From positions 1 to 40,096 of the forward strand of contig JAICKU010000029.1 in the NCBI GenBank assembly GCA_025927765.1: a stretch of 40,096 nucleotides of DNA, written 5' to 3'. Made by a program: the position numbers and the translations under genes. The stretch is from Burkholderiales bacterium. Its GTDB lineage: Bacteria > Pseudomonadota > Gammaproteobacteria > Burkholderiales > Casimicrobiaceae. The notes under the pieces were generated by a model that was given only the letters and a program-made list of their open reading frames with translations, was not told where the DNA came from and ran no database searches. Positions 1,559 to 33,284 of the stretch are shown piece by piece (the first letter of the stretch is position 1; every line of letters begins with the position of its first letter).

Positions 1559-1637
<79 letters not shown>

Positions 1638-18490: not shown

Positions 18491-21139
18491 GTGAACGACG
18501 TTGGCCCCCGGCAGCACACGCCGATGATGCAGCAGTACCTGCGCGTCAAGGACGAGCATCCCGACCGGCTCGTCTTCTATCGCATGGGCGACTTCTACGA
18601 GCTCTTCTACGACGACGCGGAGCGCGCTGCGCGCCTGCTCGACATCACGCTGACCGCGCGCGGGCAATCCGCGGGAGCGCCGATTCCGATGGCCGGCGTG
18701 CCGTTCCACGCGCTCGAGCAGCACCTCGTGCGCCTGATCGCGCGCGGCGAAAGCGCGGTGATCGTCGACCAGATCGGCGATTCCGCGACGAGCAAGGGCC
18801 TGGTCGAGCGCAAGGTCACCCGCATTGTCACGCCGGGCACGCTGACCGACGCGAACCTGCTCGACGCGAAGCGCGAAGCGCCGCTCGCCGCGGTGGTGCG
18901 CGACGGCGCGCGTGCCGGTGTCGCCTGGCTTGCACTCGCGTCCGGGAAGATGACGCTCACCGACGTCGCGGAGGGCGAACTCGCGGCGACGCTCGAGCGC
19001 ATCGAGCCGGCCGAACTGCTCGTCGCCGAGGATGCGGCACCGATCGCGATGCGTGGCTCGCGCATGCCGGTGCGCGGCATGCCCGCGTGGCATTTCGATC
19101 CCACGCACGCGGCGCGCGCGCTCGCGCGCCAGCTCGGCACCGCGGACCTGCGCGGCTTCGGCGCCGACGCCGTGCCGCTCGCGGTGGGTGCCGCCGGCGC
19201 GCTGCTGACCTACGCGAGCGCCACGCAACAGGGCGGCCTCGAGCACGTGCGCCTGCTGCATGTCGAAACCGACGACGAATTCGTCGCGCTCGATGCGGCG
19301 ACCCGGCGCAACCTCGAGATCACGCAGACCCTGTCCGGCGAGCGCGATCCGACGCTCCATTCGCTGCTCGATGCGTGCGCGACGGCCGCGGGCAGCCGTC
19401 TGCTGCGTCATTGGCTGACGCATCCGCTGCGCGACGTGACGCGCGCCGGCGCGCGTCACGACGCGATCGAAGCGCTCATCGGGAACAGCGCGCGTGCCGC
19501 GACGATCGTGTCGCTGCTTGCGCGAAGCGTCGACGTCGAGCGCATCGTCTCGCGCATCGCGCTCGGCAGTGCGCGGCCACGCGATCTTTCCGGCCTGCGC
19601 GATACGCTGGCGCTGCTGCCGGCGCTGCACGGAGCGGTCGCGGCGTTCACGCCGTCATTGCTGGTCGACATCGCACGCGTTCTCGCGCCCGACCCCGCGT
19701 GGCACACATTGCTCGTCCGCGCGATTGCACCCGAGCCGGCGGCGCAACTGCGCGAAGGCGGCGTGATCGCCGGGGGCTACGACGCCGAGCTCGACGAGCT
19801 GCGGCACATCGACGCGGGATGCGGCGAATTCCTGCTCGAGCTCGAGCGCCGCGAGCGCGAGCGCAGCGGCATCGCGTCGCTTAAGGTCGAGTACAACCGC
19901 GTGCACGGCTTCTACATCGAGGTGACGCGCGCGAATGCCGAGCGCGTGCCCGACGATTATCGGCGGCGCCAGACGCTCAAGAACGCCGAGCGCTACACGA
20001 CGCCGGAGCTCGCGGCGTTCGAAGCCAAGGCCTTGTCGGCGCAGGAGCGCGCGCTCGCCTGCGAGCGGCGCCTTTACGACGCGCTGCTGTCCGAGCTCGC
20101 GCCGGCGATTCCGGCGTTGCAGGGCGTTGCGGAAGCGCTCGCGACGCTCGACGTCGTGGCCACACTCGCCGAACGGTCAGCGACGCTGCGCCTGGTGCGT
20201 CCGCAGTTCACGAGCGAGACCGGCGTCACGATCGCCGGCGGACGGCACCCGGTGGTCGAGCGGCAGGTCGAATCGTTCATCCCCAACGACCTCGTACTCG
20301 ACGCGTCGCGGCGGCTGCTCGTGGTCACCGGGCCGAACATGGGCGGCAAGTCGACGTACATGCGCCAGACGGCCGTGATCGCGCTCCTCGCCCACTGCGG
20401 GATGTTCGTGCCGGCCGCGCGCGCCACGCTCGGGCCGATCGACGCGATCTTCACGCGCATCGGCTCGGCCGACGACCTCGCGGGCGGCCGCTCGACGTTC
20501 ATGGTCGAGATGACCGAAGCCGCGTACATCCTCAATCGCGCGACATCGAAGAGCCTGGTGCTGATCGACGAGATCGGGCGCGGAACGTCGACGTTCGACG
20601 GCCTCGCGCTCGCATGGGCGATCGCGCATCGGCTGGCGTCGCAAAACCGCAGCCTCGCGCTCTTCGCGACGCACTACTTCGAGCTGACCGCCCTGCCGTC
20701 GGAATTGCCCGACTGCGCGAACATTCATTTCGATGCGATCGAAACACGCAGCAAGCAGGGGCCGGGCATCGTGTTCCTGCACAAGGTCGAGGACGGGCCG
20801 GCGAACCGCAGCTACGGCCTGCAGGTCGCGCGGCTCGCGGGCGTGCCCCAGGACGCGCTGAAGCTTGCACAGCGCTATTTCGCGCGGCTCGACAAGTTCC
20901 ACGTACGCGACGACGCGCAGCACGACCTGTTCGCTTCCACTTCGGGGTCAGAGCGACAAGTCGTTCCGGCACCCACTTCGGGGTCAGAGCGACAAGTCGG
21001 AACGACTTGTCGCTCTGACCCCGAAGTGGGTGCCGAAGCCATTGCAGCGCGACTGCGCGCGCTCGACCCCGACGCGCTGTCGCCGCGCGACGCGCTCGCT
21101 GCACTCTACGAGTTGAAGCGTCTCATCGCGGACGGCTGA
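18491..21139 (+). CDS. mutS: DNA mismatch repair protein MutS
   Basis: An 882-residue MutS with the mismatch-reading motif MGDFYELF (Phe35, Glu37), connector and lever domains, clamp region, and the ATPase with Walker A GPNMGGKS (614-621), STFMVEMTE, Walker [17 protein letters not shown] and ATHYFEL. The C-terminal dimer/tetramer helices ([29 protein letters not shown]) are intact. Between ATPase and C-terminal helices, residues 816-848 are encoded by a palindromic repeat element ([13 protein letters not shown] then [12 protein letters not shown]), which is not part of normal MutS but preserves the frame. The start is GTG at 18491, giving [19 protein letters not shown] as in other MutS proteins. 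It follows the sensor kinase by 60 bases. Confidence 0.97.
20937..21034. repeat. Palindromic TCGGGGTCAGAG repeat element inserted in frame in mutS
   Basis: A 27-bp unit occurs twice in direct orientation (20937-20963 and 20973-20999), with a period of exactly 36 bp (12 codons). It is followed by its inverted copy. The second unit forms a perfect inverted repeat of 32 bp (20968-20999 with 21003-21034) around a 3-base GAA centre. The first unit can alternatively pair over 32 bp with 20998-21029. The core TCGGGGTCAGAG recurs in the element at 33185-33284. It resembles REP/BIME-type elements moved by RAYT transposases, though no such transposase is in the window. Confidence 0.9.
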
Positions 21140-33184: not shown

Positions 33185-33284
33185 GCCAAAATCGGGGTCA
33201 GAGATGCATTTCGGGGCGAGGCGCAGCGTTTCGTGCGCTTTCCCGGAAATGCATCTCTGACCCCGATTTTGACCCCGATTTTGG
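33185..33284. repeat. Palindromic TCGGGGTCAGAG repeat element between convergent genes
   Basis: A perfect 26-bp inverted repeat (33187-33212 with 33246-33271) encloses a 33-base loop that itself contains GCGCA/TGCGC arms (33221-33225, 33234-33238). An extra outer copy TGACCCCGATTTTG is repeated at 33258-33271 and 33270-33283. The arms share the 12-base core TCGGGGTCAGAG with the element inside mutS. It fills the whole gap between the stops of the membrane-protein gene (33182) and clpB (33286), and its long hairpin with A/T-rich ends could terminate transcription both ways. Confidence 0.88.

Follow-up and report, generated by a model that had tools for sequence, protein, structure and literature searches.

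How does a palindrome of a family with more than one hundred copies come to lie within mutS without breaking the frame of this mismatch-repair gene, and does it alter what the gene does? In the 40,096 nucleotides analyzed here (the window), mutS is a single intact frame of 882 codons (18491..21139, plus strand) with a GTG start. A profile search matched its product to TIGR01070 (mutS1) at 1014 bits over residues 9-876, and five Pfam MutS domains were matched as well. Between 20937 and 21035, where the first-pass annotation had placed a repeat element, we found a 27-nt repeat that occurs three times in identical form (+,+,-), each time within the mutS frame (Table 1). Copies 1 and 2 are 100% identical and are spaced by exactly 36 bp, as that annotation had stated, and gain or loss of one such unit does keep the frame. 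The perfect 32-bp inverted repeat it described (20937-20968 with 20998-21029) is also present and 100% complementary, alongside a second pair of 33 bp (20967-20999 with 21003-21035), again 100% complementary across a loop of 3 nt. Its description of the peptide was right about the 12-residue period, but the repeated peptide itself, TSGSERQV, has 8 residues and not 12.

Table 1. Features of the window, and recurrent sites of palindromic inserts in dnaE2
Feature	Position	Strand	Basis
tRNA gene	1559-1632	+	Rfam RF00005
QHDLF, beta-clamp-binding-like motif directly before the mutS insert	20918..20932	+	alignment of 21 sequences
REP copy 1	20937..20963	+	sequence comparison within window
Spacer, 9 nt, TTCCGGCAC, within the 36-nt repeat unit; inferred native linker	20964..20972	+	
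Perfect 33-bp hairpin, loop 21000-21002	20967..21035	.	repeat search and folding
REP copy 2	20973..20999	+	sequence comparison within window
REP copy 3, inverted; REPIN hairpin with copy 2	21003..21029	-	sequence comparison within window
C-terminal helices after the mutS insert	21020..21133	+	weak match to PDB 3zlj, 2ok2; model helices
Intergenic REPIN, second subfamily	33188..33270	.	core clusters, window comparison
dnaE2 site A	after GLAxRY		
dnaE2 site B	between SAIRR and MQDIP		
dnaE2 site C	after CLALWxP or nearby		
dnaE2 site D	after WDCTLE		

Only mutS, among the 34 predicted genes of the window, contains an internal perfect inverted repeat of at least 14 bp, and among 30 mutS loci searched, this one included, it is likewise alone in having such a repeat. 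As RNA, a 131-nt stretch with the hairpin has a folding energy of -91.2 kcal/mol (z -11.1); as DNA its z-score is -12.0, and in neither case was any of 200 shuffled sequences equally stable. RNase III prefers long duplexes. Cleavage of such an mRNA hairpin by this enzyme, or slowing of ribosomes at it, might lower the amount of MutS and raise the mutation rate; the predicted stability of the perfect 33-bp RNA stem speaks for such damping, but translating ribosomes possibly hold the stem open, and we regard this explanation as unlikely.

The insert encodes about 33 residues within a variable linker and outside any conserved domain, between the C-terminal helices and the motif QHDLF, which we take to be the C-terminal beta-clamp-binding site of MutS. 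Residues Q204, D206, L207 and F208 of the modeled fragment are nearly invariant among the 21 aligned sequences. Disruption of the C-terminal clamp motif of E. coli MutS leaves repair unaffected, according to the relevant section of a review (PMC11253446). The C-terminal region itself gave weak sequence matches to PDB entries 3zlj (E 0.012) and 2ok2 (E 0.092). A model of the last 276 MutS residues, built from a shallow alignment of 21 rows (mean pLDDT 69), places helices at fragment residues 238-251 and 259-275; pLDDT falls below 50 at residues 198-237 and lies at 77-86 in later blocks, and the insert region is predicted to be disordered.

MutS was matched in 55 of 60 relatives, and the loci of 29 of these (19 from the genus, 9 from the family and 1 from the order) were read. 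The insert is not genus-wide, as the first-pass annotation had expected of a recent element: it is absent from all 29, and from the 20 named relatives in the alignment. Neither GGGGTC nor GACCCC occurs in the linker DNA of 22 relatives, where the longest inverted repeats span 5-11 bp, versus 33 bp here. The addition of some 33 residues proposed for this linker holds in that they are encoded, but the whole linker, at 43 residues, is not unusually long next to the 20-45 residues of the 22 relatives when cut in the same way. Since its length lies within their range, the insert may have replaced part of an older linker instead of interrupting it.

The repeat in mutS belongs to a REP/REPIN-like family with the core GGGGTCAGAG. 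The 4.01-Mb draft genome contains 125 copies of the 11-mer CGGGGTCAGAG and 0 of the same 11-mer read backwards, and 21 genus-mates carry between 0 and 32 copies of it; these counts bear out the first-pass proposal of a mobile-type repeat. The stretches read contained 116 of the 125 copies, and in them we mapped 67 core clusters, 37 of which have both a plus and a minus copy. Two subfamilies can be recognized, with consensus sequences of about ACTTCGGGGTCAGAGCNNNAAGT and about AAATCGGGGTCAGAGATGNATTT, and the mutS copies belong to the first. The intergenic relative noted earlier within the window does share the core, but it belongs to the other subfamily, with 3 mismatches in 15. Among the 37 neighboring plus/minus pairs, exact complementarity outward from the core averages 7.1 bases, about 5 of which are family consensus, versus a mean of 3.5 in a flank-shuffled control (4.5 in the largest of 2000 shuffles). 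The mutS element extends this complementarity to 13 bases, so its palindrome reaches past the family consensus.

These data bear on two further explanations of the insert. Relatives differ in how long this linker is and in how it reads, and the present one is within their range of length, as would be expected if an ordinary MutS linker had drifted into a repeat; however, its DNA is identical to members of a family of more than 100 copies and forms a perfect palindrome seen in none of the 29 relatives read. The match to the repeat family refutes this reading, which together with the absence from relatives we consider ruled out. Joining of unrelated contigs at a repeat during assembly is highly improbable: the assembly is a draft of 148 contigs with many repeat copies at contig ends, and copy number in it could be wrong, but the same mutS gene continues in one frame on both sides of the insert, so that at most the number of copies in the array would be in error.

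Members of the family are found mainly outside genes, and the mutS array is an exception. Only 3 of the 67 clusters lie wholly inside genes in this genome. Among 139 elements read in 12 genus-mates, which are part of all the elements in those genomes, 6 lie wholly inside genes, all of them in dnaE2; none was found in a further 60 loci, a count in which many places appear twice, once for each strand. Adjoining genes often end in a copy of the repeat, which provides their final codons and stop, with tails such as TSGSER*, NSGSEP* and TSGSEQ* (this genome, G000, at C57:12757 and C88:59; also L302, L303, L312, L315, L316 and L318). An Rfam scan matched only the tRNA gene at 1559-1632.

Two genes for Y1/HUH transposases scored above the Pfam cut-off (PF01797) in this genome, and each of them lies between inverted copies of repeats of this kind. 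The first, C111:23957-24652, has the 18-nt inverted repeat GACTTCGGGGTCAGAGCG on both sides, with GGGGTCAG on both sides as well; its best NCBIfam name is REP-associated tyrosine transposase (REP_Tyr_transpos, NF047646), at 67.5 bits, under the cut-off of 80. The 21-nt inverted repeat flanking the second, AAGAAATGCGGGTCAGAGATG, is of the second-subfamily type; the repeats there read GCGGGTCAG and do not strictly fit GGGGWSAS. Of 13 transposase matches in the genus, 10 loci were read, this genome included, and in 7 of them the core stands on either side of the gene. Across the draft genomes of the genus the presence of repeats does not follow that of the transposase, which counts against a simple link between the two: G014, G021, G004 and G017 have repeats with no transposase match, and G006 has a transposase match with 0 copies of CGGGGTCAGAG.

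The family resembles REPINs and their RAYT transposases, as described in the relevant parts of Bertels and Rainey (2011, PMC3116915), in its short repeats, in the pairing of two close inverted copies as hairpin doublets, in its high copy number within one genome (125 versus 0 for the control), and in having a transposase gene flanked by its own repeat. It differs from those REPINs in that the tetranucleotide GTAG is absent from its core and from the consensus ACTTCGGGGTCAGAGCNNNAAGT. For the three most abundant 16-mers of SBW25, that account gives 1,067 occurrences, of which 14 overlap genes; here, in contrast, one array lies wholly inside mutS. The transposase-associated TIRYT/TIRtron repeats have the consensus GGGGWSAS, according to portions of a later survey (Di Nocera 2013, PMC3733652). 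GGGGTCAG fits that consensus, inverted copies of it surround the Y1 transposase gene C111:23957-24652, and dimers and clusters occur elsewhere in the genome, as they do for TIRtrons. We class the mutS element, which is in frame and unseen in the relatives read, as REPIN-like and of the GGGGWSAS type.

We conclude that the mutS insert is very probably a species-specific REPIN that was locally expanded from a 36-nt unit and is tolerated in frame. The unit consists of the repeat and its spacer, TTCCGGCACC. Exact matches to a single tandem array of this unit cover 62 nt or more of the top strand (20938-20999) and 38 nt or more of the bottom one (20998-21035). A shared spacer in both orientations is not expected from independent insertions, from which we infer local templated amplification. 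The spacer encodes PAP, which resembles the Ala/Pro-rich linkers of relatives, and it may be native linker sequence.

The course of events might then have been as follows. A short, non-autonomous palindrome of this genome-abundant family would have been mobilized as single-stranded DNA, probably by a REP-type Y1/HUH transposase encoded in the same genome; in E. coli, TnpAREP cuts and joins single-stranded REPs (PMC8266576, in part). The element would have entered the disordered MutS linker that joins the clamp-binding-like motif to the C-terminal helices, where one 36-nt unit was presumably duplicated, direct and inverted, in an event of the template-switch type. Since the frame it occupied was open, its translation would yield some 33 disordered residues. 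MutS would most likely be little affected, the element being a tolerated and nearly neutral passenger.

Two features that might have singled out the mutS element carry little weight. It is open in 4 of 6 frames, but the same holds for 17 of 37 elements. Selection for frame, as a family trait, is not supported as the reason for the 36-bp spacing, since direct copies elsewhere lie 31, 30 or 39 bp apart; the spacing in mutS may be chance.

As the first-pass annotation suggested, mutS could instead be a site of reversible instability: its direct repeats, perfect and spaced by 36 bp, and its perfect 33-bp hairpin would form a mutability switch, with slippage between the repeats or deletion at the palindrome reversibly altering MutS activity. 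Repeat-mediated switching has been proposed for Salmonella mutL, likewise a mismatch-repair gene with direct repeats (PMC2955026). There, in the sections of that work drawn on here, a 6-bp tandem repeat encodes part of the lid over the ATP pocket and loss of one copy yields a defective MutL, whereas the mutS repeat lies in a linker that is predicted to be disordered and that varies between 20 and 45 residues among relatives. Because changes by one 36-bp unit keep the frame, an on/off switch of MutS is not predicted, and we think such a role very unlikely. An effect of the mRNA hairpin is the more plausible of the two functional alternatives to a tolerated REPIN.

The other two clusters well inside genes in this genome lie in a gene for a dnaE2-type polymerase (C99:54909-57578, a gene piece; NF004225, 1163.6 bits) and in a fused metX-metW. 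At the level of the genus, dnaE2 contains perfect inverted repeats of at least 14 bp in 13 of 19 loci, at four recurrent sites (Table 1); one of the six negative loci, in G012, is a fragment. Outside the genus, one of 8 assessable loci has such a repeat, L214, L216 and L218 having been left out for want of a usable gene call. Including an element at site D in G009, dnaE2 inserts number 22; the GGGTCAGA or GGGGTCAG core is present in 15 of them and absent from 7. Inserts at one site may share descent, so that 22 is not a count of events, and the stretches G015 C7 and G009 C389 were chosen in the knowledge that they overlap dnaE2, with most of the other listed places there. The paralogue dnaE1 served as a control: such an inverted repeat was found in 2 of its 20 loci, both in what by eye resembles ordinary conserved sequence, and no recognizable insert was seen in the 20. 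Among 644 genes or gene pieces near repeats, predicted by a codon-usage script trained on 14 window genes and not by a standard gene finder, 18 rows have an inverted repeat of this length: 3 for mutS, 6 for dnaE2, 1 for metX-metW, and 8 for other genes, which we take for chance matches. The recurrence in dnaE2 is a stronger and more surprising pattern than the mutS insert; it may come from tolerance of loops, from targeting or from selection.

The in-frame palindromes of dnaE2 belong to several families (L192, which is G000 C99 of this genome; L193, L194, L196-L199, L201, L203, L207, L211, L212, L219 and L418). At L192, nt 1041-1220 of the gene hold a 21-nt unit in frame, encoding AGHRGQ five times, together with inverted copies of its flank, and nt 2776-2851 hold a second palindrome with the core, AGQRCISGNSVGNANAERGKCISDPH. 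Other peptide-coding repeats, PSPxxRxRGE and WVPAFAGTT..REGGDP, occur in dnaE2 of L207 and L219. At L418 (G009 C389, 814-5544, minus strand) dnaE2 also matches an intein (Intein_splicing, LAGLIDADG_3). The dnaE2 fragments of G012 C286 and G001 C137 break off near sites A and B, where their contigs end, as would be expected if the repeats broke the assembly.

A stop-free match across both metX and metW is found in 18 of the 22 genomes of the genus, and the palindrome lies only in the linker between them; fusion of the two genes by a REPIN is thereby ruled out. Palindromes of different families occupy this linker in 4 of 20 loci, that of this genome included (L151, 902-2755, minus strand; L223, L224 and L225), so dnaE2 is not the sole recurrent place.

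Palindromes that enter genes in frame have precedents. The original accounts of the Rickettsia palindromic elements are reportedly those of Ogata. These elements, 100-150 bp long and found in Rickettsia and Wolbachia, are in-frame palindromes within ORFs and lie there in solvent-exposed regions (from excerpts of PMC3767692); by this description the mutS insert is like them. REPs wholly inside genes are known from a number of species, and in many cases the host is a gene of replication or repair, such as uvrA, uvrB, recB, DNA polymerase I or DnaE2; dimers or groups make up over half of these REPs, and they encode 20-30 residues (Di Nocera 2013, PMC3733652, in the portions drawn on). The first-pass view that repeats within a repair gene are rare is weakened by these published cases and by the two further cases in this genome, and the mutS REPIN is a further case of a known phenomenon. 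It departs from the published ones, as far as those portions go, in its host, mutS, and in being of the TIR type where they are of the GTAG and CGTC types. A further difference is that recurrence in dnaE2 is here counted against a dnaE1 control. The main text of PMC3733652 does not mention mutS. Searches of openly available main texts, under the wordings used, found no earlier REP or RPE insert in mutS, although one may exist. Among the matches listed for the letters of the core, all were on other subjects, and among those for DnaE2 with palindromic insertion or REP only PMC3733652 bears, by title, on the matter.

A bias of intragenic REPs toward replication and repair genes was thus reported in 2013, in the parts of PMC3733652 considered here with no tested cause, and the present genus supplies a case that can be counted: dnaE2 with inserts at four sites in 13 of 19 loci, versus dnaE1 with 0 of 20 recognizable inserts. 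One reading, to which we give only a small chance, is that, in this genus, mobile palindromes landing in genes persist preferentially where the host gene sets the mutation rate, at four loop sites in dnaE2 and once in mutS. Its cause might be targeting, for example to single-stranded, damage-induced genes, or a mutability tuned through the protein or the mRNA. The mutS insert is a fresh and perfectly paired case in which effects through protein and through mRNA are separable by assay. If this reading is true, the insert would be part of a feedback between mobile elements and mutation rate, and not a neutral passenger.
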